Of a stretch of DNA of 64,000 nucleotides, positions 23,388 through 47,883 are shown one piece after another. Below the pieces are notes generated by a model. It saw only the letters and a program-made list of their open reading frames with translations, made no database searches and was not told the origin of the DNA. This stretch comes from Rhizobiales bacterium 64-17 (GTDB lineage Bacteria > Pseudomonadota > Alphaproteobacteria > Rhizobiales > Xanthobacteraceae), in NCBI GenBank assembly GCA_001899285.1, contig MKWA01000001.1, forward strand, positions 35,448 to 99,447, read 5' to 3'. Every line of letters starts with the position of its first letter. The stretch's first letter is position 1. Both the position numbers and the translations under genes were made by a program.

Positions 23388-24446
23388 ATGACCCACGCCG
23401 ATACGACAAAATCCTCCGCCCCTTCGTTGTCCGAGGCCATCCGCCGGACCGATGTCCCACGCCTGATCGGCACTCTCACGCCTGGCGTCGCGCTGGCGAC
23501 CGCTTTCGCGCTGCTGGCCTACGGTGTGAAGCTGTTACCGGGAACGCTGATCGCCAGCCCGTTCCTGATCGCGATCCTGCTCGGTGTGCTGTTCCGGGCG
23601 ATCTTCGGGATGGCCGCGCGGTTCAAGCCCGGCATCAGCTTCTGCCAGCGGCCGCTGCTGCGGTTCGCGCTGGTTCTGATCGGCCTGCAACTGACCGTGC
23701 AGCAGATCGTGCAGATCGGCACGGTCGGCGTCGTGCTGATCGTCGCCGCCGTGACCGTCACCTTCGCCGCGACCCTCTGGCTCGGCAAGCTCCTGAATAT
23801 CCGGCCGGCACTCGCCTGCCTGATCGCCTCCGGCACGTCGATCTGCGGCGCATCGGCGATCATCGCCACCAGCGCGGTGGTCGAGGCGGAAGACGAGGAC
23901 ATCGCCTATGCGGTCGGCTGCATCACGCTGTTCGGATCGCTCGCCGTGTTCCTCTATCCGTTGCTGCCGGGGCTGCTCGGACTCAGTCCTGTCGACTTCG
24001 GCCTGTGGACCGGCGCATCGGTTCACGAGGTGGCGCAGGTCGTCGCGACCGCGTTCCAGAACGGCAGCATCGCCGGTGAAACCGCAACCGTCACCAAGCT
24101 CGCGCGCATTCTGATGCTAGCGCCGATGATGCTGGCGGTCGGCCTCATCGCCCGGCGGATCAGCCGCAAGACCGGCGCATCGCAACTGCGCAATCCGTTC
24201 CCGTGGTTCGTGATCGGCTTCATGCTGTGCGTGCTGTTCAACAGCCTGGTGACCATCCCCGAACCGGTCCGCGTGCCCGTGACCGCGACCACCAGCCTCT
24301 TGCTGTGCATCGCGCTCGCCGCTATGGGGGCCGAGCTCGACCTGCGCCGGATCAAGGCCACCGGCGCCAAGCCGCTGTTGCTTGGCGCGCTGTCCTGGCT
24401 GATCATCGCCGGTCTCAGCCTGCTGGTGGTGAAATGGCCCGGATGA
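23388..24446 (+). CDS. YeiH-family putative sulfate/anion exporter (UPF0324)
   Basis: 352 aa membrane protein with about ten predicted helices. It matches the YeiH/PSE family: GTLIASPFLIAILLGVLFR, a central CGASAIIATSAVVEAEDEDIA loop and WTGASVHEVAQVVAT. YeiH proteins are proposed anion exporters induced by sulfur compounds, though transport is poorly documented. A LysR gene follows by 7 bp; yeiH next to the LysR gene yeiE is known in enterobacteria. It may relieve sulfite or sulfate released by catabolism nearby, which is a guess. Confidence 0.85.
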   Translation: MTHADTTKSSAPSLSEAIRRTDVPRLIGTLTPGVALATAFALLAYGVKLLPGTLIASPFLIAILLGVLFRAIFGMAARFKPGISFCQRPLLRFALVLIGLQLTVQQIVQIGTVGVVLIVAAVTVTFAATLWLGKLLNIRPALACLIASGTSICGASAIIATSAVVEAEDEDIAYAVGCITLFGSLAVFLYPLLPGLLGLSPVDFGLWTGASVHEVAQVVATAFQNGSIAGETATVTKLARILMLAPMMLAVGLIARRISRKTGASQLRNPFPWFVIGFMLCVLFNSLVTIPEPVRVPVTATTSLLLCIALAAMGAELDLRRIKATGAKPLLLGALSWLIIAGLSLLVVKWPG

Positions 24447-24453
24447 CGGTGAA

Positions 24454-25350
24454 TTGACCCTCGATCAACTCCGCATTTTCGTTGCCGTCGCGGAACGCGA
24501 GCACGTCACCGACGCCGCCCGCGCTCTGAATCTGACCCAGTCGGCCACCAGCGCCGCCATCGCCGCGCTGGAGGACCGCCACGGCGCGCAACTGTTCGAC
24601 CGGATCGGCCGGCGGATCGCGCTGACGCCTGCGGGACGGATGTTCCTCACCGAAGCCAAAACCGTGCTGGCGCGGGCGACCGCGGCCGAACTGATGCTGA
24701 ACGAACTGGCCGGCCTGAAACGCGGCGTCCTCACGGTGCGCGCCAGCCAGACCATTTCCAACTACTGGCTGCCGCGCTACCTCGTCGCGTTCAAACAAGC
24801 CTATCCGGGCATCGAGGTCGATCTCGGCATCGGCAACACCGCGCAGGTGGCGCAGGCCGTCGGTGAAGGCATTGTCGATCTTGGATTCGTCGAGGGCGCG
24901 GTGTCCGACCCCCTGCTGAAAACCCAGGCGATCGGCGAGGATCGCCTGGCGGTGGTGGTCGCCGCCGATTATCCGGGGCTCGAGCGCGGCCGGATCAGCC
25001 CCGCGAAACTGAAGGACATCCCGTGGGTGCTGCGCGAACCCGGCTCCGGCACGCGCTCGGAGTTCGAGGCGGCGCTGCGCAAGGCCGGCGTCAACCCGTC
25101 CCAGTTGAAAACCGTGATCGAACTCCCGTCCAACGAAGCGATCCGCGCCGCCGTCGAATCCGGAGCCGGCGCCACCGCGATCTCCGAACTGGTGGTCAAT
25201 TCCGGGCTGCGCGCGCGGACCTTGCGGCGGCTGCGCTTCGATCTGCCAAGCCGTCCGTTCTACGTGGTGCGGCACCGCGACCGCGCCGCCGGCAAGACGG
25301 CGGAAGCCCTCATCACGCTCGTTCAGGGCCTGATACGGAAACCCGGCTAA
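24454..25350 (+). CDS. LysR-family transcriptional regulator
   Basis: 298 aa. N-terminal helix-turn-helix (about 1-60: LDQLRIFVAVAEREHVTDAARALNLTQSATS) and a LysR substrate-binding domain (about 90-290). The best start is an unusual TTG at 24454; a GTG three bases upstream is blocked by an immediate stop. Co-directional with and 7 bp after the yeiH-like gene, so a YeiE-like regulator of the exporter is plausible. Its TAA overlaps the TAG of the convergent ubiX gene. Confidence 0.88.
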   Translation: MTLDQLRIFVAVAEREHVTDAARALNLTQSATSAAIAALEDRHGAQLFDRIGRRIALTPAGRMFLTEAKTVLARATAAELMLNELAGLKRGVLTVRASQTISNYWLPRYLVAFKQAYPGIEVDLGIGNTAQVAQAVGEGIVDLGFVEGAVSDPLLKTQAIGEDRLAVVVAADYPGLERGRISPAKLKDIPWVLREPGSGTRSEFEAALRKAGVNPSQLKTVIELPSNEAIRAAVESGAGATAISELVVNSGLRARTLRRLRFDLPSRPFYVVRHRDRAAGKTAEALITLVQGLIRKPG

Positions 25351-25970
25351 GACCGCGTCCCTTGCGTCGGACCAACGGTCTCGCCCCAGCGGCGGACATT
25401 GCCGGTGTCGATGCCGAACAGATCGAGCGCGCGTCCGACACTGTGATTGATCATGTCGTCGAGGCTCTCCGGCTTGGCATAGAAGGCCGGGACCGGCGGC
25501 ATGACGATCGCCCCCATCTCCGTCACCTGCGCCATGCTGCGCAGATGGCCGAGATGCAATGGCGTCTCGCGCACCATCAGCACGAGTCGCCGCCGCTCCT
25601 TGAGAATGACGTCGGCGGCGCGGCTCAACAGCCCCGCCGTCACGCCTGTGGCGATTTCCGAAAGACTGCGGATCGAGCACGGCGCGACCAGCATCCCCAT
25701 GGTGCGGAACGATCCGGAGGAGATCGACGCGCCGATATCCTCCGCCTTGTAGACGACCGTGGCGAGCGCATGGACATCCGCCAGCTTGAGCGGCGTCTCA
25801 TAGGCCAGCGTGATCTGCGCCGACCGTGTCATCACCAGATGTGTTTCGATGCCGAGCCGACGCAGGATCTCCAGCGCCCGGATGCCGTAGATGACACCCG
25901 AAGCGCCGCTGATCGCCACGATCAAGGGTGGCGATCCATGCTGAGCCTGCGCCGGTGCGCTCATGATCAA
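25347..25970 (-). CDS. UbiX-like flavin prenyltransferase
   Basis: 207 aa. UbiX enzymes prenylate FMN to make prenyl-FMN, the cofactor of UbiD decarboxylases. Hallmarks: SGASG (21-25), APCSIRSLSEIATGVTAGLL and the KERRRLVLMVRETPLHLGHL stretch. It is the last gene of the operon that starts with a UbiD at 32766, 7 bp after the binding-protein gene, so it supplies prFMN for that enzyme and perhaps for the second UbiD at 33727-35196. Normal length. Confidence 0.92.
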   Translation of the reverse strand: MIMSAPAQAQHGSPPLIVAISGASGVIYGIRALEILRRLGIETHLVMTRSAQITLAYETPLKLADVHALATVVYKAEDIGASISSGSFRTMGMLVAPCSIRSLSEIATGVTAGLLSRAADVILKERRRLVLMVRETPLHLGHLRSMAQVTEMGAIVMPPVPAFYAKPESLDDMINHSVGRALDLFGIDTGNVRRWGETVGPTQGTRS

Positions 25971-25977
25971 CGCCCGA

Positions 25978-26982
25978 TCAACGTTTGGGCAGGAATTCGT
26001 TGGTGTAGAAGACCGACACGTCCGCCTCGGTCTTGGTCAGCCCGCCATAGTCCTTCATCAGCACCTGCGCCTCTTCCCAACGCTGCTTGCTCGAATAGCC
26101 GACACCATGTTCCTTGGTCTCCGGCGTGTCCAGCAAGCGGGCCGTCGCCTTCAGCTTGGCGACTTCGACCTCGGCTTTCAAGCTCGGCGAACGCTTGATC
26201 AGCGATGCCGCCGCTTCTTCCGGATGCTGCAGCGCGTACTGGTAAGCCTTGATGCTGGCACGGACGAAGCCGCCCACCACCTTCGGCGACGAGGCGATCG
26301 TGTCGCGGTGCGCGGCGATGCCGTCGCCCATCGTGTTGATGCCGAAATCCGAATAGGTGAACGCCGTCACCGCGTCGTTGGTGGTCGCAGCAAGGCCGAT
26401 ATAGGAATCGTTGGTGAAGCCGGTGATCGCTTCCGCGCGCTTGGACAGGAAGGTCTGGTTGCGGGTGCCGCCATCGGACGCCACGATCCGCACCGCCGTC
26501 CGGTCGATCTTGTTCTTCGCCAGCAGCGCATAGAGCATGGTCGTCGTCGTGTCGCCCTGCAGGGTCGCGACCACCTTGCCGACCAGATCCGCCGGCTTGG
26601 TGATGTTCTGATCCTTCCAGCTAATCAAGGCGTTCGGGCTGATCTGGTAGAGCTGTGCCACCGTGCGCACCGGCATGCCCTGCGCCGCACCAAGCATCAG
26701 CGACGGCGGATCGACGATGGTGAAAGTGTCCTGCTTGCTGGCGACGAGCTGCATCGAGGACGTGACGCCCTTGCCTTCGAGCACCTCAACGTCGAGACCC
26801 TCGTCGCGGTAGAAGCCCTTGTCGACACCGAGCAGATAAGGCGAGCGGTGGCCGTTGTAGTTGAAAGCGAGGCGCACCGTGGCCTTAGTCAGTCCCTGGG
26901 CAAGGGCCAACGGACCGGAGAAACCGAACGCGCCGGCGGCGACGCCCGTAGCCAGGAAGGAACGACGAGAAAAGCTGTTCAT
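25978..26982 (-). CDS. NitT/TauT-type ABC transporter substrate-binding protein, Tat signal
   Basis: 334 aa NMT1/THI5-like periplasmic binding protein. The N-terminus has a twin-arginine signal, SRRSFLATG (Arg6-Arg7), with cleavage near ALA/QG around residue 28. The mature part (ATVRLAFNYNGHRSPYLLG) fits nitrate/taurine/thiamine-precursor-like binders. It lies 13 bp downstream of the ATPase gene in the UbiD-UbiX operon, so it probably captures the compound the operon degrades. Confidence 0.9.
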   Translation of the reverse strand: MNSFSRRSFLATGVAAGAFGFSGPLALAQGLTKATVRLAFNYNGHRSPYLLGVDKGFYRDEGLDVEVLEGKGVTSSMQLVASKQDTFTIVDPPSLMLGAAQGMPVRTVAQLYQISPNALISWKDQNITKPADLVGKVVATLQGDTTTTMLYALLAKNKIDRTAVRIVASDGGTRNQTFLSKRAEAITGFTNDSYIGLAATTNDAVTAFTYSDFGINTMGDGIAAHRDTIASSPKVVGGFVRASIKAYQYALQHPEEAAASLIKRSPSLKAEVEVAKLKATARLLDTPETKEHGVGYSSKQRWEEAQVLMKDYGGLTKTEADVSVFYTNEFLPKR

Positions 26983-26995
26983 CTTGATCCCCTTT

Positions 26996-27772
26996 CTAAT
27001 ATTTCTTCAGCACACCATGACGCTCGAAGAGATGGCGGACATGTGCCACCAGCTCGACAAAGCGTCGCGTCTCCATGGTTTCCGGCTTGCGCGGGAACGG
27101 CAGATCGACCTCGACGATCTCCGCGATCCGGCCCGGCCGCGGCGTCATGACAAGCACGCGCTGCGCCAGAAGGATCGCCTCCTGGATATCGTGGGTGACA
27201 AACATGACACTCTTGCGCGTCCGCAGCCAGAGCAGATGCAATTCCATGACCATCTGCTCGCGCGTCAACGCATCGAGCGCGCCGAATGGCTCATCCATCA
27301 GCAACAGCGGCGGGTCGTGAATAAGCGCACGGCAAATCGACACGCGCTGCCGCATTCCGCCCGACAATTCGTGGGGATATTTGTCTTCAAATCCGGTGAG
27401 CCCGACGAGCGCCAGCAGATCGCGCGCCTTCTGTTCGTAGAGCTTCATGTCCAGGCCACGGATCTGCGGCTGGATCATCACATTGTCGAGGACGCGGCGC
27501 CATTCCAGCAGCACATCGGTCTGGAAGACGATGCCGATATCCGTCACCGCGTGGGTGATCGGTTTGCCGGAGAGCGCCACATTGCCGGATGTCGGAAACT
27601 CCAGCCCCGACGCCAGCGACAACAGCGTGCTCTTGCCGCAACCACTAGGGCCGAGGATCGACAGGAACTCGCCCTCACCGATGCTGAAATCAATCCCGTC
27701 CAGCGCCTGAACCGGTCCGCTCTTGGCTTGATAGATTTTGCCGACGCTGGATAGCGACAGTGCCGCGCTCAT
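26996..27772 (-). CDS. NitT/TauT-type ABC transporter ATPase (SsuB/TauB-like)
   Basis: 258 aa. Walker A GPSGCGKST (41-49), signature LSGGMRQR, Walker B LLLMDEPFGALD and switch histidine VTHD are intact. The ATG at 27772 overlaps the permease stop (ATGA). The open frame begins 17 codons earlier inside the permease gene, without similarity, so the later start is preferred. Confidence 0.93.
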   Translation of the reverse strand: MSAALSLSSVGKIYQAKSGPVQALDGIDFSIGEGEFLSILGPSGCGKSTLLSLASGLEFPTSGNVALSGKPITHAVTDIGIVFQTDVLLEWRRVLDNVMIQPQIRGLDMKLYEQKARDLLALVGLTGFEDKYPHELSGGMRQRVSICRALIHDPPLLLMDEPFGALDALTREQMVMELHLLWLRTRKSVMFVTHDIQEAILLAQRVLVMTPRPGRIAEIVEVDLPFPRKPETMETRRFVELVAHVRHLFERHGVLKKY

Positions 27773-28554
27773 CGCCCATCCCCCTCGATGGCGCGCTGCG
27801 ACACATGCCACGGCAGCGCCCAACGCTCGACCATATCAACCAGCGCATAGAGCAAAACGCCGAGCAGACTTAAAACGACCAGAACGGTGAACGACAGCGT
27901 GACGTCGAGAGCGCCGTTGGCGACGATCAACTGGTAACCAAGCCCGCGATCCGCGGCGACGAATTCGCCGACGATAGCGCCGACAATGGCGAGCGTGCTC
28001 GCGACTTTCACGCCGGCGAAAATGTGCGGCAGCGCCGCCGGAATCTGGAAGTTGATGAAATTCTGCCACCGCGTGGTGCCCATCGACCGCGCGAGCCAGG
28101 AGACCTCCTTCGGCGCGGAGCGGAAGCCGATCAGCGAATCCACAACGATCGGGAAGAAGCAGATCAGGAAGGCGATCAGCACCTTGGGCGCGAGCCCGAA
28201 ACCGAACCACACCACCAGCAGCGGGGCGATCGCGACCTTCGGGATCGTCTGCGATGCCACCAGAACCGGATAGAGCATCCGCTCGACCGTCCGCATCTGC
28301 GCGAGCGCTGCCGCGAGCGGAATGCTGACGATGATCGCCAGAGCGAAGCCGATCATCACCTCCAGCGTCGTCGCGGCGGTGTGGTACAGGATCGAACCGA
28401 TGTCCTGGACCATCCGCTGCGCGATGGCGGATGGCGGCGGCAGCAGGTAGTTCGGGACATTGCCGACCCGCACGCCGACCTCCCACAGCACGACGATGAT
28501 CGCCCCGACCAGGAGGCCATCGAGAGAACCGGGTATTCGCCAGCGTGTTTTCAT
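27769..28554 (-). CDS. NitT/TauT-type ABC transporter permease (SsuC/TauC-like)
   Basis: 261 aa with six or so membrane segments and the family EAA-type loop (SAPKEVSWLARSMGTTRWQ). The start at 28554 follows GGGAGAACC. An upstream in-frame extension lacks family features. It sits 19 bp after the aminotransferase stop and overlaps the ATPase gene by 4 bp. Confidence 0.92.
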   Translation of the reverse strand: MKTRWRIPGSLDGLLVGAIIVVLWEVGVRVGNVPNYLLPPPSAIAQRMVQDIGSILYHTAATTLEVMIGFALAIIVSIPLAAALAQMRTVERMLYPVLVASQTIPKVAIAPLLVVWFGFGLAPKVLIAFLICFFPIVVDSLIGFRSAPKEVSWLARSMGTTRWQNFINFQIPAALPHIFAGVKVASTLAIVGAIVGEFVAADRGLGYQLIVANGALDVTLSFTVLVVLSLLGVLLYALVDMVERWALPWHVSQRAIEGDGR

Positions 28555-28573
28555 GGTTCTCCCACCCCTCTTC

Positions 28574-29674
28574 TCACGCGATGCGCCGCAGCGCCGCGAT
28601 GAGCCGCTCATTGTCGTTGCGTCCCCGCAGCGAAACCCGCAGCGAACGGTATCGCTCAAGACCGTGGAACGAGGTCGCGTCGGCGACGATGATCCCCTGT
28701 GCCGCCAGAAGCTCCGCCGCTTCGCCGGGCTGATGCTTCTCGAGATCGAGCAAAATCATGTTGGCGTTGCTGCCGCTGATCGAGAGACCGGGCATCGTCT
28801 TGATCGCATCGGCAAAGAACGCGCTTTCCGTCGCGAAGGTCGCCTTGCAGCGCGCGAGGAAGGCGGTGTCGGCCAGCGCCGCCACAGCGGCGGAAACGGA
28901 CGGCGCGGCCAGATTGAACGGCGGCCGGCCAACCTCGGCGATGGCGACGAGCTTCGGGTCCGCGACCGCGTAGCCGATCCGCAGACCGGCGAGACCAAAA
29001 TATTTGGAAAAGGTCCGCAGCACGATGACATTGCGCAGCCGCTTCGGCAGCGCCATGGCGCCATCCGTGGCCGGATCAATCAGCGCCTCATCGACAACAA
29101 AGAGCGTCTCGGCATGGCGCGTCGCGAGATCAGCGATCGTCTCCACGGCAAAACGCTCGCCGGTCGGATTGTTCGGCGAGCAGATGAAGGCGAGCGCAAC
29201 CGACTCGCGCGCCAAAACGGCAGGAAACGCATGGAGATCGGTTCGCGTGGGGGTCTTGCTTTCGACGGCGACGACGCGGCAGCCGCGTAGTCCGGCCTCC
29301 AGCTCATAGCGTGGGAACGTCGGGATATGCACGAGGACGGTATCGCCCTCGCTCGTCCAGGCGTGGATCAGGAGCTTGATCACGTCATCGAGGCCAGCGC
29401 CGAAAAACAGCGCGTCCTCGTCCACATCGTGACGCCGCGCCACGGCCTGGCGCAACGCCGCGAACCGCAGGTCGGGATAAAGATGACCGGTCGAGAGCGC
29501 CTCGCGGGCGGCGGCAATCGCGCCTTCCGGCGGCCCGAACGGATTGATGTTGAGTGAGAAGTCGAGAACCGTCGCGGGATCGAGCCCATGCCGGGCCGCG
29601 ACCGTCGCCACCGAGGTCTCCGCTTCGTAAAGCCGGACGGACGCCAGTTTCTCGTTTTGCACATTCAGCGTCAT
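28574..29674 (-). CDS. PLP-dependent class I/II aminotransferase (HisC/CobD-like fold)
   Basis: 366 aa fold-type I enzyme. PLP lysine is Lys224 (RTFSKYFGLAGLRIGY); Asn169 (CSPNNPTG) and Asp195 (VVDEALID) contact the cofactor. The N-terminal DFSLNINPFGPP resembles histidinol-phosphate aminotransferase and threonine-phosphate decarboxylase (CobD). There are no cobalamin or histidine genes nearby; the context is a UbiD/UbiX catabolic operon. It may transaminate or decarboxylate an amino-acid intermediate. The ATG at 29674 overlaps the upstream stop by 4 bp. Confidence 0.85.
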   Translation of the reverse strand: MTLNVQNEKLASVRLYEAETSVATVAARHGLDPATVLDFSLNINPFGPPEGAIAAAREALSTGHLYPDLRFAALRQAVARRHDVDEDALFFGAGLDDVIKLLIHAWTSEGDTVLVHIPTFPRYELEAGLRGCRVVAVESKTPTRTDLHAFPAVLARESVALAFICSPNNPTGERFAVETIADLATRHAETLFVVDEALIDPATDGAMALPKRLRNVIVLRTFSKYFGLAGLRIGYAVADPKLVAIAEVGRPPFNLAAPSVSAAVAALADTAFLARCKATFATESAFFADAIKTMPGLSISGSNANMILLDLEKHQPGEAAELLAAQGIIVADATSFHGLERYRSLRVSLRGRNDNERLIAALRRIA

Positions 29675-30393
29675 GCAAGAAGCCTGCCGTAGCCGGTGAG
29701 CGACAACGGCAACCCCAGAGCGCGCAGCACGCCCCACAGCGTCACCTGATTGCTGGTCAGGACCGGCTTGCCCAGCTCCTGCTCGAGAGCCGCTGCGATT
29801 TCCATCGCCCGGAAATCGGTGCAACTGACGAACACAGCCTCACTCTCTGCGGTATCGGTCTCGCGCACGAGAGCAGCGACACGCTCCGGCGCGACCTCGC
29901 GGATCGCCTTCCCCGACAAGCCGAGACCGCGCATCGAGACGACCGACAGCCCGTGTCCCTCAAGGAACGATCGCTCGGCCTCGTTGATGGCGTCGAGATA
30001 GGGCGTCGCAAGCGCGATCCGTGTCAGACCGAGATGCGCGAACGCGTCGATGATGCAGCGCGAGGTGGCGACCACGGGACAGCCGACGATCGCTTCGATC
30101 GCCGCAGTCTGCCGCGCGAGTCCCGCTTCCCCGTCGATGAACGTTCCGCTGGTGCAGGCGAACGCCACCACGTCCGGCGTCACCGATGCGATCAGTTCCG
30201 CGGCGGCTTCGACGCCCGCATTCATCGCCCGCAGGCCGTCGGGTGTCGTCTCACGCAGCATCACGCGCGTGGCGTGGAAGGTGATATCCGCCAGCCGTAC
30301 CGCCGCGAAATCCGGCTCGATCACGGCATTCACGGACGGGACGATCAGTCCCACCCGGCGCCGGCGAGCATATGGCGTGGCGGTATCCGGCAT
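29671..30393 (-). CDS. Maleate isomerase / arylmalonate decarboxylase-like (Asp/Glu racemase superfamily)
   Basis: 240 aa. The N-terminus VGLIVPSVNAVIEPDF resembles the VPSSN motif of maleate isomerases, and both superfamily catalytic cysteines are present: Cys80 (FACTSG) and Cys191 (VSCTDFRAM). These enzymes isomerise, racemise or decarboxylate small dicarboxylates by cysteine chemistry. It overlaps the DUF4392 stop by one base (TGATG) and the aminotransferase by 4 bp. Maleate isomerase, an Asp/Glu-type racemase and arylmalonate decarboxylase are all possible. Confidence 0.82.
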   Translation of the reverse strand: MPDTATPYARRRRVGLIVPSVNAVIEPDFAAVRLADITFHATRVMLRETTPDGLRAMNAGVEAAAELIASVTPDVVAFACTSGTFIDGEAGLARQTAAIEAIVGCPVVATSRCIIDAFAHLGLTRIALATPYLDAINEAERSFLEGHGLSVVSMRGLGLSGKAIREVAPERVAALVRETDTAESEAVFVSCTDFRAMEIAAALEQELGKPVLTSNQVTLWGVLRALGLPLSLTGYGRLLA

Positions 30394-31427
30394 CAGACCT
30401 TTTTCCAGGATGTCTGGTAGCCGGCGATATTGCCGCTTTCGCGCTGGCTGAGAACGACGAGTGAGCGTAGCAGATCGACCAGCGCCGCATTGGTGCGGGC
30501 GTCGGTGCCATCCACATAGAGACGCAACTGGCCGCCGACCGGATCGATCGCGCCTGCGCGCACGCAGGCCTCGATCAGCCGCACTTCCTCGGCGCCATCG
30601 TGGAACGCGGCTTCGTTGCCGACCATCGCCGCGAGGCAGGCCGCGATGCCATAAGCGCCCCAGTTGGAGATGTTCGCGATCACGGCGACATCGGCGGGCT
30701 GCGCGGCCGCGATCACGTCGCCAAGCGGGACGTCGGCTTTCACGTCATCGGCGACGACGCCGAGGCCGAGTTCGTTGCCCAGATCGCCGACGCCAATGGT
30801 CGGAATTCCGCGCCGCCGCGCTTCGGCGAACAGCACGTCCGTCTTGGCGGTGAACGACGAAATCTCGAAGCCGCCGCCACCATGATATTCGCCGTCGCTG
30901 CCGGCGCCGGGCCGCTCCACCGCGACGAGTGCTTTCGGCTTCAGGCGATCGAGCAGATCGGTCGCAGCCTGCTGCGCCTTGGACGCATCGACGGGAAATC
31001 CGGAAAAGCCGCAGCGGTTACGGCCGGACTGCAATTCGTCGAACGGGGCCGGGATCAGGCCGGCGGTGGAGAAGCACGCCTCCATGCACGGAACGACGGA
31101 CTCTTCTGAAACGCCGACCGGGATCGCGCCGAGCCCGACGGCGAGCGCCTTGGCGACTACCGCCGCGCCGATCGGCCCATCGGTTTCGGGGCGGCCATAG
31201 CCGCGCATGATGAAGCCGCTGAGGATCAGCACCGTGTCGCCGGCGCCGACATTGTCATGCAGCAACTTGCTCGCGGCCAGCGTCAGCGGCAGCCCACCCG
31301 CCTTCTTGCGCGCGGTGGCGTAGAGCTTGAGCAGCGGAATACCCTTGAGGATCGTCCAGTTCGACATCGGCGCGGTGACGAGATGATCGACCGCCTCACC
31401 GATGCGTTCGATGCTAATGCCCGACAT
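30393..31427 (-). CDS. DUF4392 (D-glutamate cyclase-like) domain protein
   Basis: 344 aa with ATG at 31427, which overlaps the UbiD stop by 14 bp and has GAGG upstream. The segment GRPETDGPIGAAVVAKAL is the recognisable DUF4392 motif. In vertebrates a DUF4392 domain is D-glutamate cyclase, which turns D-glutamate into 5-oxo-D-proline; bacterial stand-alone members are mostly uncharacterised. Further conserved-looking segments include VERPGAGSDGEYHGGGGF and GVGDLGNELG. Between a UbiD and a racemase-like gene, it may act on an amino-acid-like or lactam-forming intermediate. Confidence 0.78.
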   Translation of the reverse strand: MSGISIERIGEAVDHLVTAPMSNWTILKGIPLLKLYATARKKAGGLPLTLAASKLLHDNVGAGDTVLILSGFIMRGYGRPETDGPIGAAVVAKALAVGLGAIPVGVSEESVVPCMEACFSTAGLIPAPFDELQSGRNRCGFSGFPVDASKAQQAATDLLDRLKPKALVAVERPGAGSDGEYHGGGGFEISSFTAKTDVLFAEARRRGIPTIGVGDLGNELGLGVVADDVKADVPLGDVIAAAQPADVAVIANISNWGAYGIAACLAAMVGNEAAFHDGAEEVRLIEACVRAGAIDPVGGQLRLYVDGTDARTNAALVDLLRSLVVLSQRESGNIAGYQTSWKKV

Positions 31428-32766
31428 CGATATAATCCTCCAGGCGAATGCTGCCCTCGCCGGGGAACCGGCGGCGCTCGAAAAGTCCCTTGAGCGGGAT
31501 CGGGACCGTGGCGTCGATGCCGATCTTGCCCCGGTGCACGTCGCGCACGTCCTCACGCGTATAACTCGGCACCCGCGGAATGGCGTAGACACCGGTATCC
31601 GGCGTACAGCGGGTCTGGATCGCCCACAGCACATCGGCGGCGTTGAACGGATCGACATCCTCGTCGACGATCACGACCACCTTGGTCCAGGAATAGCCGC
31701 CGAGCGCCGCCAGCAGCGCATTCTTCGGCTGATCCTCGTTCTGCTTCTCGATCGAGATGACGCAGCCGAACACATAGCCCGGCGTCGCGATGTCCTTGAT
31801 GCGCGGAACGAACGCGGACACCTTCTTGTAGATTTCGGTCTGGATCGGCACGCCGACCAGATTGAGGTCCTCGGTGCCGCCGGCGAGGATCGCGTGATAG
31901 ATCGCATCCTTGCGCCGGGTGATCGCGGTGACGCGGAACACATGGTTCTTCATCACCGGCACGTAGCCGTCGGTGAACTCACCGAACGGCCCTTCCTCCT
32001 CGCGGATATCGCGGATGACCTCGCCCTCGATGACGATCTCGGCGTCAGCCGGCACATCGACGGGGATCGTCTTGCAGCGCACGACGCGCAGCGGCTTGCC
32101 CTGCCAGGCGCCGGCGACCTCCAGCTCATCGACCTCGTAAGGCACCTTCGAGGCGGCGGAGAACATCAGGCCCGGCGGCGCGCCGATGACGATGGCGCAC
32201 GGCAGATTGCGCCCCTTCGCCTCCGCCTCGGCGTGATAGCGGCCGAGATGCTGCGGCGGCATCATGCGCACGCGCAGCTTGTCGTCGCCGACGAGCTGGC
32301 AGCGATTCCACGACGCGTTATAGACCCCCGTCTCCGGATGCGGCGCGATCAGCACGCCGGCGGTGATATAGGCGCCGGCGTCGTGCTCGGCATAAACGAT
32401 CTGCGGCAGGTCGCGCGCGACGTCGATCTTGTCGCCGGTCAGAACCACCTCCTGCACCGGCGCATCGGTGACGCGATCGACCGGCAGCCGGCGGTTTTCC
32501 AGCGCGACGAGTGTTCGCAGCAGATTGCCCTCTTCGAGCCCCAGCGACTCCGCCACCGTGCTGCGAAAGCCGAACACATTGGTCGCAACGGGAATGTCGG
32601 TGCCTTTCACATTCTTGAACAGCAGCGCCTTGTTGTCGCCCCGCTGCATGTGCCGCATCACGGCCGTCAGTTCGTGCTTGGGATCGACTTGTCGGCTGAC
32701 CCTTGCGAGGTCGCCTTTCGCCTCGAGCCGTTCGATCAGTTGGCGAAAGGTTTGCATTGCTGGCAT
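31414..32766 (-). CDS. UbiD-family prenyl-FMN-dependent (de)carboxylase, operon leader
   Basis: 450 aa. The signature EGPFGE gives catalytic Glu258 and Glu263, matching Glu277 and Glu282 of fungal Fdc1, and Arg155 (SWNRCQLV) matches the catalytic Arg173. It should reversibly decarboxylate an aromatic, heteroaromatic or alpha,beta-unsaturated acid. First gene of the eight-gene operon that ends with ubiX. The promoter and an IclR-type operator lie just upstream. Substrate not assignable. Confidence 0.92.
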   Translation of the reverse strand: MPAMQTFRQLIERLEAKGDLARVSRQVDPKHELTAVMRHMQRGDNKALLFKNVKGTDIPVATNVFGFRSTVAESLGLEEGNLLRTLVALENRRLPVDRVTDAPVQEVVLTGDKIDVARDLPQIVYAEHDAGAYITAGVLIAPHPETGVYNASWNRCQLVGDDKLRVRMMPPQHLGRYHAEAEAKGRNLPCAIVIGAPPGLMFSAASKVPYEVDELEVAGAWQGKPLRVVRCKTIPVDVPADAEIVIEGEVIRDIREEEGPFGEFTDGYVPVMKNHVFRVTAITRRKDAIYHAILAGGTEDLNLVGVPIQTEIYKKVSAFVPRIKDIATPGYVFGCVISIEKQNEDQPKNALLAALGGYSWTKVVVIVDEDVDPFNAADVLWAIQTRCTPDTGVYAIPRVPSYTREDVRDVHRGKIGIDATVPIPLKGLFERRRFPGEGSIRLEDYIDVGH

Positions 32767-32775
32767 TCATCACCC

Positions 32776-32804
32776 GTTGCGCATTGCGCAACTCTGTTGC
32801 GCAA
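32776..32804. promoter_or_regulatory. IclR-type operator with three GTTGCGCA half-sites
   Basis: GTTGCGCA (32776-32783) and TGCGCAAC (32785-32792) form a perfect 17-bp palindrome around one base. A third half-site GTTGCGCAA follows at 32796-32804. It lies between the -10 box and the start codon of the UbiD operon and upstream of the divergent iclR gene, the position expected for a repressor of the operon that also autoregulates. Confidence 0.7.
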
Positions 32805-32807
32805 ATA

Positions 32808-32837
32808 ATAATTCCATGCGATAAGCGATGCTGTCAA
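32808..32837 (-). promoter_or_regulatory. Promoter of the UbiD-UbiX operon
   Basis: Reading leftwards, TTGACA (complement of 32832-32837), an 18-bp spacer and AATTAT (complement of 32808-32813) form a good sigma-70-type promoter. It ends a few bases before the GTTGCGCA operator array, about 40 nt from the UbiD ATG. Confidence 0.6.
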
Positions 32838-32862: not shown

Positions 32863-33702
32863 ATGGGCAAAAGTACAAAAGCAACGACGATCAAACGCCG
32901 TTCGCGGCCAGCGGCCAAGCGTCGCTCCTCCACGGTGCAGGCAGTTCAGCACGCCATCGAGGTGCTGCGCTGCGTCTCGCAGACGCAGCCGGAGATCGGC
33001 GTGTCGGAGATCGCGCGCCGCGTCGGGCTGCACAAAAGCTCGATCTCGCGGCTGGTGTCGACACTCGCGGCCGAGCATCTTCTTGAACGCAACGAGCGGA
33101 CCGAGGGCGTGCGGCTCGGCTTCAGCCTTGTCGCCCTCGCCGCGCCGCTGCTGTCAGGCGCGGGACTGACGCAGGCCGCGCAACCGCAGATCAACGCGCT
33201 CGCCGAGCGCTCCGGCGAAACCGTCAATCTCAGCGTCTGGGACGGCCATCAGGCCGTCAGCGTGCACCAGGCGCTCGGCACCAATGCGATCACGCACTAC
33301 GCCACGCCCGGCCAGATCAACCCCGCGCACTGCACGGCATCGGGAAAACTCCTGCTCGCCTTTGCGTCGCAGGACGAGATCGACAAGGCCCTGTCCGGCA
33401 GGCTGCAACGCTTCACCGAGCACACCAAGACGTCACCGGCCGTGCTGGCCAGAGAGCTTGCGCAGATCCGCACCGAGGGGCGCGCGATCAACCACGGTGA
33501 ATATGCCAGCGATGTCGGCGCAGTTGCCGCAGGCGTCCGCAACATGGACGGCCGGACGCTGGCGGTGGTGACGATCACCGTCCCCGCCTATCGCTTCTCA
33601 TCCGGCCGGCAGACGGAGTTGATGGCAATGGTCGAGGCGACGGCAGCCGTCATTTCCGCGCAACTGGGCTACCGGCCACAAACGGTCCCAAAAATTAGGT
33701 GA
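32863..33702 (+). CDS. IclR-family transcriptional regulator of the UbiD locus
   Basis: 279 aa. Basic N-terminus, winged helix-turn-helix (about 25-85: QPEIGVSEIARRVGLHKSSISRLVSTL) and IclR effector domain (about 95-265). It is divergent from the UbiD-UbiX operon across 96 bp that contain the triple GTTGCGCA operator, and convergent with the second UbiD gene (24 bp between stops). Most likely a repressor released by the substrate. Confidence 0.9.
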   Translation: MGKSTKATTIKRRSRPAAKRRSSTVQAVQHAIEVLRCVSQTQPEIGVSEIARRVGLHKSSISRLVSTLAAEHLLERNERTEGVRLGFSLVALAAPLLSGAGLTQAAQPQINALAERSGETVNLSVWDGHQAVSVHQALGTNAITHYATPGQINPAHCTASGKLLLAFASQDEIDKALSGRLQRFTEHTKTSPAVLARELAQIRTEGRAINHGEYASDVGAVAAGVRNMDGRTLAVVTITVPAYRFSSGRQTELMAMVEATAAVISAQLGYRPQTVPKIR

Positions 33703-33726: not shown

Positions 33727-35196
33727 TTATCGGAAATTGAAAAGATTGCCGCCGACGGCATCGCGCCACGATGATGCCGGCACCGCCGCGATCACTTGCG
33801 CGGGATCGATCTTCTCTTCACCGGGAACGCGAATCCGTTTGAACGTCATCTCGCTCGCATCAAGCGGCTTGGTCGCATCGAGCCCCATCTTTGTGCCCAC
33901 ACCGTTTCGCGTCGACGGGTCAAGCTTCGACCCCTGACTTTCCGGCACCACCAGCAGATCACGATCGGCCTGGAACCGCGTCGCGACCGCCCACTCCACC
34001 TCGGCGGGATTGTGAATATCGACATCCTCATCGACGACGATCACATGCTTCACGTCGTAGTGGCCGGCAAAGGCCCCCATCATCACATTCTTGGCTTCGC
34101 CATCCTGCCGCTTCGCGAGCTGCACATAGAGGTGATATCGGCAGACGCCGCCCAGCGCGAGATGCACGTCGCGCACATTCGGGAAACTGCGCTGCAGATG
34201 CTGAAGCAACGTCGCCTCTCGCGGAATGGCGCCGAGCAGCAAATGTTCGAGCCCGCCGCCGACAATGGTATGGAACAAAGCATTCTTGCGCTGCGTGAGC
34301 GTCGTCAGCTCGATGACATGCCGCTTGGCAGGCTCCCCGTAATATTGCGGAAACTCACCGAACGGTCCTTCCATCTCCCGCACTTTCGGGAGGATACGAC
34401 CCTCGATCACGATCTCCGCTTCCGCCGGCACCCGCACGTCGTTGGTGATGCACTTCACCACCGGCAGCGACGCGCCGTGTAGCGCACCTGCAATGGTCAG
34501 TTCATCGAAGTCGATCGGCGCGATCGCCTGCGACGCAAGCAGCGTCATCGGATCGACACCGATGACAATGGCAACGTCGAGCGGCTGGCCTGACCGCTCG
34601 GCCATCTCATAGAACATGCTGGTGTGGCGCGGCAGCAGCAGCGCGCCGAGTCGGTTCGGGCCACTGACCTGCAACCGGTGGATCGAGACGTTCTGCACGC
34701 CGGTCGATGGGTTGCGCGCAATCACCAGCCCGGCCGTGATGTAGGCACCGTTGTCGTGTTCGTTATGGACCGGCAGCGGCAACTGCTTGCCGAGATCGAC
34801 CTCGCGATGCACGACCTCCTGCACCGGCGCGTTCTTGACCTCCGTCCACGGCAGCGGATTCTGTGCCGCACGCTGAAAACACTCCAGCACCTGGCGTGGC
34901 TCCACGCCCATCGCCTCGGCGATCCACCGCCGGTCCGAGACAAGTCCCGAAATCACCGGCGTCACAAACCCGCCGGGACGCGGAAACAGTGTCGCCTTCG
35001 TGCCATCGAAACGTTTGGCGATCGCCGCCAGTTCGAATGCCAGCGACACTTCAGGCTTGATCACCGCCAGCCGATCGCTCCCCGCCAGCCGGTCGAGCCA
35101 GTCGCGCAGCGTCGTGACCGGATGCAACGGATGACCGGCGGGTCGCGTGGAACGGGCAACATCCGATGTGAAGGGAGTCTCGACCATCATCGTCAT
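33727..35196 (-). CDS. Second UbiD-family prenyl-FMN-dependent (de)carboxylase
   Basis: 489 aa. EGPFGE gives Glu276 and Glu281, and Arg174 (SIHRLQV) completes the catalytic triad. It is clearly different from the UbiD at 31414-32766 in length and sequence (e.g. FPQYYGEPAKRHV versus FTDGYVPVMKNHV), so the pair is not a recent tandem duplication. It stands alone on the minus strand and must take prFMN from the ubiX at 25347. Met3 or Met4 are alternative starts to the ATG at 35196. Confidence 0.9.
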   Translation of the reverse strand: MTMMVETPFTSDVARSTRPAGHPLHPVTTLRDWLDRLAGSDRLAVIKPEVSLAFELAAIAKRFDGTKATLFPRPGGFVTPVISGLVSDRRWIAEAMGVEPRQVLECFQRAAQNPLPWTEVKNAPVQEVVHREVDLGKQLPLPVHNEHDNGAYITAGLVIARNPSTGVQNVSIHRLQVSGPNRLGALLLPRHTSMFYEMAERSGQPLDVAIVIGVDPMTLLASQAIAPIDFDELTIAGALHGASLPVVKCITNDVRVPAEAEIVIEGRILPKVREMEGPFGEFPQYYGEPAKRHVIELTTLTQRKNALFHTIVGGGLEHLLLGAIPREATLLQHLQRSFPNVRDVHLALGGVCRYHLYVQLAKRQDGEAKNVMMGAFAGHYDVKHVIVVDEDVDIHNPAEVEWAVATRFQADRDLLVVPESQGSKLDPSTRNGVGTKMGLDATKPLDASEMTFKRIRVPGEEKIDPAQVIAAVPASSWRDAVGGNLFNFR

Positions 35197-35595
35197 CCTG
35201 TTCCCGGCGCGATCAAAACAAATGGTTTCGTCTTGCGCGACATCATATTGAACGATCGCTTGTCGCTGTCTGCGATAATCCGTTTTAAAAATTTTCTCCA
35301 GCGGTTTATCGGGCGCGCGTCGTTGCCGCCAACATCGCTGCGTTTATTGTCGCGCACAACATGCGTCGAAAATCACTCGCCGCATCCGCGGATCGACACC
35401 GGCAACGCGCACGCGGCCCGTGTCTCAAGAACCTTGCGATCACCAGAACGCGGCGCGTTGCAGCGCGGCATCGCCTGATCGCGCCAGCCGGAAGATCCCG
35501 TCCGGACAGCCGAAATTGCCGAAAATAGCGGTATTTAGCCTCTATGCGCCTGACTCATTTTGCGCGAAACTGACACGCGGAACCCGAGGGACTGA
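35197..35595. other. 399-bp divergent intergenic region without a gene
   Basis: It separates the second UbiD gene (leftward) from an AraC gene (rightward). AT-rich patches such as TTTTAAAAATTTTC near 35281 interrupt GC-rich sequence. I see no clear -35/-10 pair, no copy of GTTGCGCA and no credible reading frame. GAGGGACTG just before 35596 is the ribosome site of the AraC gene. Confidence 0.5.
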
Positions 35596-36456
35596 ATGTC
35601 TACTGCTTTGCGCATCGCTCATGGCGCGTTCGGCCGTGTCGCCCTGCTCGACATGGATCGTTCGCTCGTGCGTCATGCGCATCCCCATTGCCATGTGTTG
35701 CTCAAGGCGGACGGCGCCGACACCCAGTTCGCCGTCGGCGACGGCATGGTGCAACTGACCGATACTCAGGCGGTGCTCATCAACACATGGGAGCAACACG
35801 CCTATGTGCACGACCAGAATCGACCCCGCACCATCATCCTCGCGCTCTACATCGAGCCGGACTGGTTGAAAACCTTCCGTCCGAACTGGGCCGCGAGCGG
35901 CGCGCCCGGCTTCTTCGAGAAGCCGTCCGGCGAGATTTCTCCGCGCATCCGCCGGCTTTCGATGGACCTCGCAACGGTGATGATGGCCGATCCCTGCGCC
36001 AATTCGGCGCAGGAACAGCTGTTGTCCGACCTGATGATCGCGGTGATCGAACGGTTCACGCCGTGGCGCACCATCAGCCGCCGGCTGCAAGACATGGATC
36101 GCGATTATGACCGGTTTGACTGGCGGATTCGCCGCGCCATCAAATTGACCCGGACCGAGCCGGGGCTGATCCACGATGTGGATTCACTGGCGAAGGAATC
36201 GGGCCTGTCGCGTGCGCATTTTTACCGCCTGTTCGAGCGATCGGCGCGAATGACGCCGCATGTGTATCTCAATCTGTTGCGGATGGAGCTGGCGGTGCAG
36301 TCGGTGGTTCACAGCAGCAACAGCCTGTCCGCCGTGAGCGACACGCTCGGCTTCAGCGCGCAAGGCCATTTCACGCGCTTCTTCAGGGACCACGCCGGCG
36401 TCACGCCGAGCGAATTTCGCCATGTGGCCCGCATGGGTTCACCCCCCTATCCTTAA
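35596..36456 (+). CDS. AraC-family transcriptional regulator (module C)
   Basis: 286 aa. N-terminal cupin sensor with a His-rich segment (VRHAHPHCHVLLKADG) and C-terminal double helix-turn-helix (about 185-280: LAKESGLSRAHFYRLFERS; FRDHAGVTPSEFRHV). It is followed by 132 bp and then the 13-gene module C on the same strand, so it is probably that operon's activator. It could also act on the second UbiD gene, from which it diverges. Confidence 0.9.
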   Translation: MSTALRIAHGAFGRVALLDMDRSLVRHAHPHCHVLLKADGADTQFAVGDGMVQLTDTQAVLINTWEQHAYVHDQNRPRTIILALYIEPDWLKTFRPNWAASGAPGFFEKPSGEISPRIRRLSMDLATVMMADPCANSAQEQLLSDLMIAVIERFTPWRTISRRLQDMDRDYDRFDWRIRRAIKLTRTEPGLIHDVDSLAKESGLSRAHFYRLFERSARMTPHVYLNLLRMELAVQSVVHSSNSLSAVSDTLGFSAQGHFTRFFRDHAGVTPSEFRHVARMGSPPYP

Positions 36457-36533
36457 GCCCTCCGTCAGCCAAAAAGAGACGTTTCGGTAAATCGCGAGAC
36501 GCAGCGGCATCGTTCCGCCGGCTGGCCTGCGCC

Positions 36534-36579
36534 AACGTTTCCCATTGATGCGCCGCAAAGAGCGCACCAGGGGAACGTT
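36534..36579 (+). promoter_or_regulatory. Possible regulator site upstream of module C
   Basis: AACGTTTCCC (36534-36543) and GGGGAACGTT (36570-36579) are inverted with one mismatch. A further ACGTTTC lies at 36479-36485 in the same orientation as the first arm. They sit in the 132 bp between the AraC gene and the coxL-coxG fusion. No clear promoter boxes were found. Confidence 0.35.
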
Positions 36580-36588
36580 CAGAGACTT

Positions 36589-39525: not shown

Positions 39526-40349
39526 AACCGGCCCGCTTCGACTATGTCCGCGCCGAGCATCTTGCGGAGGTTCATGACGTCCTTGCGGAAAACGGCAACG
39601 ACGCGCGCGTGATCGCCGGCGGACAAACGCTGCTGCCCATGCTGTCGATGCGCCTCGCCCGGCCGAAAGTCGTGGTCGATATCATGCATCTGCCGCAGTT
39701 GCAGACCATCGACGCCGACAAGGGCACTATCCGCATCGGCGCCGGTGTCCGGCAAGCGCAGCTTCTCGGCTGGCCCCTTCTCAGCGACAGACAACCGCTA
39801 CTCGCAGCCGCCTTGCCATGGGTCGGCCACGCACAAACCCGCAACCGCGGCACCATCTGCGGTTCGCTGGCCCATGCCGATCCGAGCGCCGAAATCCCGC
39901 TCGTTCTGGTGGCGCTTGGCGGCACCATCGAACTGTCATCTCGGCGCGGCCGCCGGCGGATCGCCGCGGATATCTTCTTTACCGGAATGATGTCCACCGC
40001 CCGCAGCGAAGACGAATTGATCGAAGCGGCGATCCTGCCGGCACGACCAACCGGCAGCGGCTACGCTTTTCAGGAGTTTGGGCGACGGCATGGCGATTTT
40101 GCCATCGCCGCTTGCGCGGCCGTCGCCACCGATAAGGGCACACGGCTGGCCGTTGCAGGCGTCGCCGACCGCGCCACCATGCACGATTTCGCCGCGCTGG
40201 ACGGGAGCGCCCTCGATGACGCGCTCGATGCCTTCGCGTGGGATCTCGACGCCCGCGACGATCTGCACGCCACCGCCCGCTACCGCCGGGAACTCGTCCG
40301 CCGCATGGGCCGCGCCGTCATCGAGGAAGCACGCCGATGCCGCGCCTGA
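39522..40349 (+). CDS. FAD-binding subunit of molybdenum hydroxylase (CoxM-like), module C
   Basis: 275 aa. FAD motifs AGGQTLLPML (32-41) and GTICGSLAHADPSAE (from 110); the usual Gly-Gly of the second motif is Cys-Gly here. It has no 4Fe-4S insertion, which argues against a 4-hydroxybenzoyl-CoA reductase. It overlaps the fusion gene by 4 bp and the 2Fe-2S gene by 13 bp. Confidence 0.92.
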   Translation: MKPARFDYVRAEHLAEVHDVLAENGNDARVIAGGQTLLPMLSMRLARPKVVVDIMHLPQLQTIDADKGTIRIGAGVRQAQLLGWPLLSDRQPLLAAALPWVGHAQTRNRGTICGSLAHADPSAEIPLVLVALGGTIELSSRRGRRRIAADIFFTGMMSTARSEDELIEAAILPARPTGSGYAFQEFGRRHGDFAIAACAAVATDKGTRLAVAGVADRATMHDFAALDGSALDDALDAFAWDLDARDDLHATARYRRELVRRMGRAVIEEARRCRA

Positions 40350-40858
40350 ACGCAACACAGCGCCATCGTGTGCGGCTCACCGTCAATGGCCGCCAGGTCG
40401 AAGCAGATGCGGAGCCACGCATGCTGCTGACGGATTTCCTGCGTCACGAACTTGGCCTCACCGGCACCCACGTCGGTTGCGAGCACGGGGTCTGCGGCGC
40501 CTGCACCATCGATATCGACGGTGTCCCGGCCCGCGCCTGTTTGACACTGGCGGTTCAGGCCGACGGCGGAACCATCCGGACCGTAGAAAGCCTCGCTCCG
40601 GAGCCGGGTCGCCTCTCGATCCTGCAACAGGCATTCCGCCGCCATCACGCGCTGCAATGCGGCTTCTGCACCGCAGGCATCCTGATGTCGCTCGACTGCT
40701 ATCTGCGCGACCGCCCGGAGCCGACCGAAGCCGAACTGCGCGAATTCCTCGGTGGACATCTGTGCCGCTGCACCGGCTACACACCGATCCTGAAAGCGGC
40801 GCTCGAAGCCGCCACGATGCTGCACAAGAAAAGACCGGAGGAGCAGCTTCATGCTTGA
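40337..40858 (+). CDS. 2Fe-2S subunit of molybdenum hydroxylase (CoxS-like), module C
   Basis: 173 aa from the ATG at 40337; the frame is open upstream only within the FAD gene. All eight cluster cysteines are present: 48, 53, 56, 68 (CEHGVCGAC) and 108, 111, 143, 145 (CGFC, CRC). Compared with modules A and B the gene order is L-M-S with CoxG moved into L. It overlaps the CoA ligase gene by 8 bp. Confidence 0.93.
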   Translation: MPRLNATQRHRVRLTVNGRQVEADAEPRMLLTDFLRHELGLTGTHVGCEHGVCGACTIDIDGVPARACLTLAVQADGGTIRTVESLAPEPGRLSILQQAFRRHHALQCGFCTAGILMSLDCYLRDRPEPTEAELREFLGGHLCRCTGYTPILKAALEAATMLHKKRPEEQLHA

Positions 40859-44439: not shown

Positions 44440-44466
44440 GTCCGTGCAACACAAGAACCACGAGGC

Positions 44467-47146: not shown

Positions 47147-47147
47147 C

Positions 47148-47855: not shown

Positions 47856-47883
47856 CAAGAAACGACTGGATGGAGGACATGCG

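Follow-up and report, generated by a model that had tools for sequence, protein, structure and literature searches.

A conserved UbiD/UbiX operon with a DUF4392 gene and a divergent IclR regulator, a candidate system for catabolism of a nitrogen-containing ring acid

Described systems and the operon

We describe an operon of Rhizobiales bacterium 64-17 that joins UbiD and UbiX genes to genes for a DUF4392 protein, two further enzymes and an ATP-binding cassette (ABC) importer. The described systems with which it can be compared are known from several papers. HmfF, a UbiD decarboxylase dependent on prenylated flavin mononucleotide (prFMN), is represented by structure 6h6v (PMC8988006). In HudA, N318 lies within hydrogen-bonding distance of the imidazole ring nitrogen and corresponds to H297 of HmfF; pyrrole-2-carboxylate was fully decarboxylated by the wild type and N318D only, N318C and N318S being considerably active, and imidazole-2-carboxylate is given as no substrate (PMC7976604). 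For the indole-3-carboxylate decarboxylase AnInD, docking and mutants led to the assignment of Asp169 as the ring-nitrogen partner (PMC8988006). A mouse DUF4392 protein turns D-glutamate into 5-oxo-D-proline (PMC5339696), and for the relative TON_0340 a low, Mn-dependent phosphatase activity is described, with many phosphate compounds as substrates (PMC5132392). Arylmalonate decarboxylases (AMDases) carry Gly74 in place of the second active-site cysteine of their superfamily (PMC4996985).

The operon lies in a window of 64,000 nucleotides (contig MKWA01000001.1, positions 35,448 to 99,447 of the forward strand). We propose, with moderate confidence, that it serves the IclR-controlled catabolism of a small heteroaromatic acid with a ring N-H, of the azole, pyrrole or hydroxylated azaarene type. 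It is a real, conserved and, within the open-licence literature, undescribed version of the UbiD/UbiX catabolic systems. The sequence-only reading of this DNA had likewise known of no pathway with this combination of genes, and we found no description of one in that literature.

Eight open reading frames (ORFs) on the minus strand (25347-32766) follow one another in the order UbiD, DUF4392, AMDase-like protein, pyridoxal phosphate (PLP) enzyme, permease, ATPase, binding protein and UbiX. The features are listed below by coordinates in the window.

31414..32766, minus strand: UbiD1, prFMN-dependent decarboxylase, HmfF-like (PF01977, E 2.8e-62; TIGR00148 above cut-off)
31867..31869, minus strand: codon (GAC) of UbiD1 Asp300, at the HmfF His296/297 position and, via HmfF, the HudA Asn318 position (alignment)
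30393..31427, minus strand: DUF4392/GLUCM-like_C protein, predicted binuclear-metal cyclic-amide hydrolase or cyclase (PF14336, E 3.3e-72)
29671..30393, minus strand: AMDase-superfamily Cys/Cys isomerase or racemase, as predicted (PF17645, E 1.8e-36)
28574..29674, minus strand: HisC/CobD-like PLP enzyme, probable aminotransferase (PF00155, E 2.6e-45)
27769..28554, minus strand: ABC permease (PF00528)
26996..27772, minus strand: ABC ATPase, NitT/TauT type (PF00005)
25978..26982, minus strand: NMT1/THI5-type binding protein (PF09084, E 1.2e-47)
25347..25964, minus strand: UbiX flavin prenyltransferase (TIGR00421 above cut-off)
32776..32799, minus strand: predicted IclR operator CAACAGAGTTGCGCAATGCGCAAC (pattern search)
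32808..32837, minus strand: promoter-like TTGACA-N18-AATTAT, upstream of the operator
32863..33702, plus strand: divergent IclR-family regulator (PF01614 and PF09339)

The gaps between the genes, computed like the gene boundaries with the likeliest start codons, are -14, -1, -4, +19, -4, +13 and +13 bases in operon order. All eight family assignments are backed by Pfam, and NCBIfam agrees wherever a model exists; for the DUF4392 protein no NCBIfam model was available. The sequence-only reading had given this gene order, these family labels and eight same-strand genes joined by overlaps or tiny gaps, all of which the ORFs, Pfam and NCBIfam (silent on DUF4392) bear out, the gaps running from -14 to +19 bases. 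The span proposed there, 25347-32837, contains the genes, but its upper end is the start of the TTGACA box and no gene ends there.

Conservation and regulation of the gene set

Because the entire order recurs in seven other loci, the linkage is non-random and a chance gene neighbourhood is ruled out. A pattern-based scan with the single DUF4392 protein over one genome per species (84,980 species), a search that reaches close relatives only, gave nine loci, which were then compared with the window proteins by tblastn. The complete order with divergent IclR is present in five of the nine: Chelatococcus asaccharovorans (L015), Afifella marina (L016), a Bosea metagenome-assembled genome (MAG; L018), a betaproteobacterial MAG (L020) and a Pseudohalocynthiibacter plasmid (L021). 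Contig ends cut two others, L017 after DUF4392 and L019 after the PLP gene, and the last two are from Clostridia (Formimonas warabiya, L022, and L023). When 397 genomes from the same order as the window were searched, three further members turned up in one genus, namely L016 again and L080 and L081, the last two with the complete gene order. L018 and L019, which are 99.7% identical over 12 kb, are counted as one locus; L016 is counted once together with hit G1356, which has identical coordinates, and L024 and L045 are the plasmid of L021. On this count the complete nine-gene set, IclR plus the eight operon genes, occurs in eight alpha- and betaproteobacterial loci including the window. L017 belongs to a MAG titled Bordetella parapertussis and has UbiD-DUF4392, IclR and the operator.

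The sequence-only reading had asked for co-occurrence of UbiD, DUF4392 and the racemase-like gene across genomes, and would have been abandoned had the neighbourhood been found in no other genome. The genes do co-occur, in full order in all eight loci, seven of them further proteobacterial loci, and this recurrent order supports its view of one conserved uptake and catabolism gene set. No subfamily-level match beyond those already found was present in 385 genomes of the window's class or 398 of its phylum (the latter searched at E 1e-80), nor in 274 genomes of the class of L020 (G388), 198 of the family of L021 (G389) or 43 of the class of L022 (G390). We estimate from these figures that the gene set is rare and scattered across bacteria, the samples overlapping, being mostly subsets of larger groups and following a loose first look. 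The Pseudohalocynthiibacter copy is on a plasmid typed as conjugative by prediction, with an IS6 transposase and transposition genes of the Mu/TniB type close by, and its position therefore suggests horizontal spread of the operon.

Across the six complete loci that were compared, mean identity ranges from 0.51 (IclR) to 0.81 (UbiD1). Pairwise distances correlate between genes at 0.32 to 0.95, with the lowest value for the permease with UbiX; the correlations are high among IclR, UbiD, DUF4392, the PLP enzyme and the ATPase, and lower overall for the AMDase-like protein, permease, binding protein and UbiX.

A simpler account would see here plain aromatic-acid uptake and UbiD decarboxylation, with the DUF4392, AMDase-like and PLP genes as unrelated passengers. 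UbiD with an NMT1-type ABC importer and IclR does exist without those genes (L018:2056-7649), but their identical order in eight loci, together with the persistence in Clostridia of UbiD-DUF4392 adjacency and a nearby AMDase-like gene, makes this account improbable.

Regulation of the conserved set by its adjacent IclR protein is well supported by sequence, and the protein is predicted to bind a candidate operator. The IclR gene starts 96 bases from UbiD on the opposite strand and is its divergent neighbour in the window and in eight other distinct proteobacterial loci. The intergenic regions contain three CAAC/GTTG half-sites. The window contains the operator pattern CAACNNNGTTGSKCNATRSSCAAC a single time (32776-32799, minus strand), against none in 100 shuffles with up to two mismatches, and the 4,627,262-base genome likewise has it once even when one mismatch is allowed; the reversed pattern gave no genomic match. 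It is exact and identically placed in L015, L016, L017, L018, L019, L021, L080 and L081. With the window, eight of the nine distinct proteobacterial loci thus have the 24-bp operator in the interval from IclR to UbiD. L020 lacks the exact operator and has two GTTG-N9-CAAC partial sites instead. Since the first set of loci served to define the pattern, finding it there is no independent evidence; that it is unique in the genome and recurs in L080 and L081, both congeneric with L016, does not follow from that definition. Just upstream of the operator is the TTGACA-N18-AATTAT box, found once against 0.8 expected and non-significant alone, and similar promoter-like boxes precede the operator in other loci, as judged by eye. 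An operator downstream of a promoter-like box fits repression. The sequence-only reading had also given the operon its own IclR regulator, which the divergent gene with its conserved candidate operator supports.

Catalytic residues and a proposed pathway

UbiD-type decarboxylation is predicted for UbiD1 and well supported by sequence. UbiD1 has the UbiD domains and the E(D)-R-E triad, with R155, E258 and E263 invariant in a 10-row alignment. Its nearest structure is 6h6v (E 5.7e-85), with the near-identical chain 6h6x, followed by 7p9q, the indole-3-carboxylate decarboxylase. Aligned with HmfF, UbiD1 has Asp300 for His296 and Ile308 for Arg304, which in HmfF forms a specificity pair with the histidine. 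Asp300 stands at the specificity histidine of HmfF (H297 in the numbering of PMC7976604), and of 11 other linked loci that were read, 10, both Clostridia among them, retain the Asp motif; the exception is L019. In this MAG contig the sequence deviates from that of L018 precisely at the Asp300 motif (about residues 296-306), perhaps through an assembly error. From this one residue, the comparison with HudA suggests that the substrate ring of UbiD1 bears an N-H.

The DUF4392 protein belongs to the DUF4392/GLUCM-like family by PF14336 and by all six acidic metal ligands of TON_0340, which are kept as E83, D85, E173, D217, E221 and D308 and are invariant in nine of nine aligned sequences (numbers follow the translated stretch, which starts two residues before the likely Met). 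The E83/D85 pair was aligned with TON_0340 in a stretch that is weak and separate from the rest. Structure modelling covered this protein alone: its AlphaFold2 model has a predicted local distance difference test score of 83.1, and Foldseek matched it to TON_0340 with a template-modelling score of 0.83 by target length and 0.66 by query. A Pfam scan found no DUF1445 partner domain in it. The UbiD-linked DUF4392 proteins that were scored reach at least 586 bits against their own profile, with the next best at 250 in those searches, and by sequence they form a distinct subfamily.

In 19 other DUF4392 contexts (14 genomic ones of 9-19.5 kb, L053-L056, L060 and L082-L090, and five plasmid ones of 23-25 kb, L025-L029), tblastn at 1e-6 gave no match to UbiD1, UbiD2 (the second UbiD protein of the window), the AMDase-like protein or the PLP enzyme. 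The remaining DUF4392 matches, viewed as stretches of about 2.4-4 kb, showed no UbiD or AMDase-like match; in this group L051 contains a weak match to the PLP enzyme (28% identity). The neighbours in the five plasmid contexts are amino-acid, dicarboxylate or other transport genes. In L026, L027, L029 and L003 the DUF4392 genes stand as nearby or tandem pairs, with amino-acid/tricarboxylate transporters near them in the three annotated ones.

The DUF4392 protein could also be a phosphatase here, the pathway proceeding through a phosphorylated intermediate. HisC and CobD relatives bind phosphorylated substrates, and TON_0340 offers a precedent, but the activity reported for it is low and unspecific (PMC5132392), the operon has no kinase and the mouse DUF4392 protein makes 5-oxo-D-proline from D-glutamate (PMC5339696), so that we consider a phosphatase very improbable. 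Opening of a cyclic amide by the DUF4392 protein, as we prefer, is proposed from the D-glutamate cyclase reaction (PMC5339696) and from its gene company. The sequence-only reading had invoked the same vertebrate precedent, which does not transfer to this bacterial subfamily from sequence alone.

The AMDase-like protein has two active-site cysteines, as in the Cys/Cys type of the Asp/Glu racemase superfamily: Cys80, in a Cys-Thr-Ser motif (CTSG), and Cys191, both motifs being present in all 10 other loci read. Cys80 replaces Gly74 of the AMDases (PMC4996985), and an isomerase or racemase is therefore more likely than a decarboxylase; arylmalonate decarboxylase identity is ruled out on the same ground. 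The label "maleate-isomerase-like" given earlier agrees with the best structural match, a putative maleate isomerase, but is loose because the EutA and AMDase models score highest, both below cut-off (AMDase 113 bits against 225). Two top-listed relatives outside the cluster (47% and 43% identity; best 20 of 617 plasmid records) adjoin hydantoinase/oxoprolinase genes, which encode ring-amide hydrolases, on annotated plasmids.

The PLP enzyme is a probable aminotransferase, with the motifs SPNNPTG and RTFSK and Lys224. It scores 251.1 bits against the HisC model TIGR01141 (cut-off 276.55) and 237.0 bits against the CobD model TIGR01140 (cut-off 290.55). Among the best 15 of 625 records of a plasmid search, nothing above 37% identity was found except on the Pseudohalocynthiibacter plasmid.

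The best NCBIfam models for the importer ATPase are the taurine and SaoA ATPases, both under cut-off. The binding protein begins MNSFSRRSFLA, which by eye contains a twin-arginine signal (RRSFLA); its nearest structures, 4nmy and 3ix1 (THI5 type), give no clue to its ligand. A plasmid search with it gave nothing above 33% identity except the Pseudohalocynthiibacter plasmid (best 15 of 432 records). PF02441 has two matches in the genome, the operon UbiX and a CoaBC-like fused protein, the latter identified by reading its translation, and this search gave no second UbiX-type match. There are four UbiD matches in the genome, UbiD1 and three more, and the operon UbiX probably supplies prFMN to the others too, including the neighbouring UbiD2. 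The operon had been described as self-contained; it does have its own importer and enzymes, but because its UbiX, the only one found in the genome, presumably serves three further UbiD matches, the term is not strictly true.

The Clostridial loci keep UbiD beside DUF4392 together with an AMDase-like gene; in L022 this gene lies some 8 kb upstream, and in L023 it adjoins the pair. L023 runs UbiX (39% identity), molybdenum hydroxylase subunits, UbiD, DUF4392 and AMDase-like gene. L022 begins with the AMDase-like gene, a hydroxylase large subunit, electron-transfer flavoprotein beta (by reading) and alpha subunits, and hydroxylase small and medium subunits, and continues with a DAO-family flavin adenine dinucleotide (FAD) protein, UbiD, DUF4392 and a second hydroxylase, whose large subunit scores above the XdhA cut-off. 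Between L022 and L023, the subunits of the first hydroxylase set are orthologous, with 50-66% identity. DapF-family genes by both clusters (L061:15143-15994 and L023:2847-3767) are nearest histidine racemases, at 168 and 141 bits against a cut-off of 400.

Two other substrate classes have to be weighed against these data. In the first, an imidazole carboxylate or imidazolone linked to histidine would be decarboxylated and hydrolysed, and the HisC-like enzyme would use an amine or amino acid that carries an imidazole. The PLP enzyme is nearest HisC, but HisC-like folds serve many amines; the Clostridial racemase matches are sub-threshold and the gene is absent from the nine conserved proteobacterial genes. 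HudA binds imidazole at its N318 site, but imidazole-2-carboxylate is not among its substrates (PMC7976604), and we regard this substrate class as unlikely. In the second, a pyridine-type acid such as a dihydroxypyridine carboxylate would give a glutaconimide-like ring, opened by DUF4392 and isomerised by the AMDase-like enzyme. Maleate isomerases, relatives of the latter, are known from pyridine pathways, and the Clostridial clusters have molybdenum hydroxylases, with two sets in L022 and one large subunit above the XdhA cut-off; the proteobacterial operon, however, has no hydroxylase, and a literature search for UbiD and pyridine gave no UbiD among the matches listed. We consider a pyridine somewhat less probable still than an imidazole.

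The sequence-only reading had looked towards an acid with amino or lactam functions, and an N-containing ring or lactam acid does agree with Asp300 of UbiD, with the metal site of the DUF4392 protein and with the molybdenum hydroxylases of the Clostridia. For such an acid we infer the following chemical steps and their order, as well as the substrate class and binding by the regulator. The NMT1-type ABC importer would take up the acid, and UbiD1, with UbiX-made prFMN, would remove the ring carboxylate, Asp300 being predicted to accept the ring N-H. The two-metal DUF4392 protein would open the resulting cyclic amide (enamide or lactam), in chemistry of the class of D-glutamate/5-oxoproline interconversion run towards hydrolysis. 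The Cys/Cys enzyme would then shift a proton on the ring-opened acid, by cis-trans isomerisation or racemisation, and the PLP enzyme would transfer the amino group to leave an acid of central metabolism. In Clostridia, a molybdenum hydroxylase would first add the oxygen that turns the ring into a lactam. By way of illustration and with no claim, 5-hydroxypyrrole-2-carboxylate would pass through a pyrrolinone and cis- then trans-4-aminocrotonate to 4-oxocrotonate. That this is a new prFMN pathway, in which a two-metal DUF4392 protein opens a decarboxylated N-heterocycle without ATP, we advance tentatively, as slightly less likely than the catabolic proposal itself.

Several observations weigh against this proposal. 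UbiD1 belongs to a different UbiD branch from HudA, and its Asp300 is matched to the Asn/Asp position 318 only by way of HmfF. UbiD1 has Met169 at Asp169 of AnInD, its second-nearest solved relative, and the Asp300 argument therefore leans on a more distant UbiD branch. There is no hydroxylase in the proteobacterial operon; the imported acid would therefore be pre-oxygenated, or a molybdenum enzyme would be encoded elsewhere. The histidine-racemase-like gene at both Clostridial loci is superfluous for the pyrrole example. By tblastn neither Clostridial locus has a match to the PLP enzyme, and the FAD enzyme may therefore handle the amino group there. Three other AMDase-like relatives (the third and fourth listed, at 38% and 35%, and one at 36%) have no adjoining ring-amide hydrolases. 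The D-glutamate cyclase activity of the mouse protein and the Mn-phosphatase activity of TON_0340 do not establish lactam opening here. Finally, distance correlations are uneven, and with six loci block inheritance of every gene is neither proven nor excluded.

If the proposal is true, bacterial DUF4392 gains a catabolic role, none having been found in the open-licence literature, and a three-gene core would be common to anaerobes, where it follows a molybdenum hydroxylase, and aerobes, where it follows uptake. The prFMN decarboxylases could gain a new class of ring acids. The DUF4392 family is poorly understood and present in humans too, and the operon may provide a bacterial role for it: it brings one DUF4392 subfamily together with an importer, an isomerase, a single operator and UbiD chemistry, and its substrate is thus testable by induction, binding and growth.

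Neighbouring genes and comparison with known systems

Beyond the IclR gene, the window holds an hmf-like furoate/furandicarboxylate (FDCA) cluster (33727-43198), likened to hmf on the basis of the hmf gene order. Its UbiD2 has the HmfF-type LEHLLLGAIPRE stretch, and its other genes encode an AraC regulator, a CoxL-type subunit fused to CoxG, CoxM, CoxS, an AMP-ligase and an enoyl-CoA hydratase. UbiD1 lacks the HmfF His/Arg pair, which rules out an ordinary hmf/FDCA operon for it; UbiD2 carries that signature. A branched-chain-type ABC importer (43270-47852; a binding protein, two permeases and one ATPase by Pfam, with a further ORF at 47097-47852) comes right after the cluster, followed by a TctC-type binding protein (47803-48864). 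On the other side of the operon, LysR-like and YeiH-like ORFs (23388-25350, labelled by reading) lie on the opposite strand and face its end, with a 4-base overlap between the LysR-like ORF and the UbiX stop. LysR and YeiH genes are also found as a pair about 10 kb from a DUF4392 gene of an Aminobacter plasmid (L025). In the Bosea MAG, the cluster at L018:2056-7649 is a second one, ordered UbiX, UbiD, permease, ATPase, binding protein and IclR, which stands back to back with the operon and has no DUF4392.

The operon resembles the hmf system (furfural, 2-furoate or FDCA; HmfF/HmfG) in that UbiD1 is nearest HmfF 6h6v and is paired with UbiX. It differs in having no CoA ligase or furoyl-CoA dehydrogenase, with DUF4392, AMDase-like and PLP genes instead, and in the Asp300 and Ile308 of UbiD1 where HmfF has His296 and Arg304. 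With PA0254/HudA, UbiD1 shares a polar residue at the position of ring-nitrogen recognition, where Asp is functional in HudA N318D; HudA, however, falls in the Fdc1-like dimeric branch (PMC7976604), whereas UbiD1 is HmfF-like. The operon DUF4392 protein matches TON_0340 in its fold and in all six acidic metal ligands, but unlike TON_0340 and the vertebrate D-glutamate cyclase it belongs to a distinct UbiD-linked subfamily, without a DUF1445 partner domain. The AMDase-like protein shares the PF17645 fold with AMDase, maleate isomerase and EutA and has Cys-Thr-Ser where AMDase has Gly-Thr-Ser, but it carries a second active-site cysteine at AMDase Gly74 and scores below the EutA and AMDase cut-offs. 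Hydantoinase/oxoprolinase clusters (HyuAB, PxpB) are the home of its two top-listed outside relatives. In contrast to those clusters, the operon has no HyuAB or PxpABC gene, and ring opening is attributed to DUF4392.

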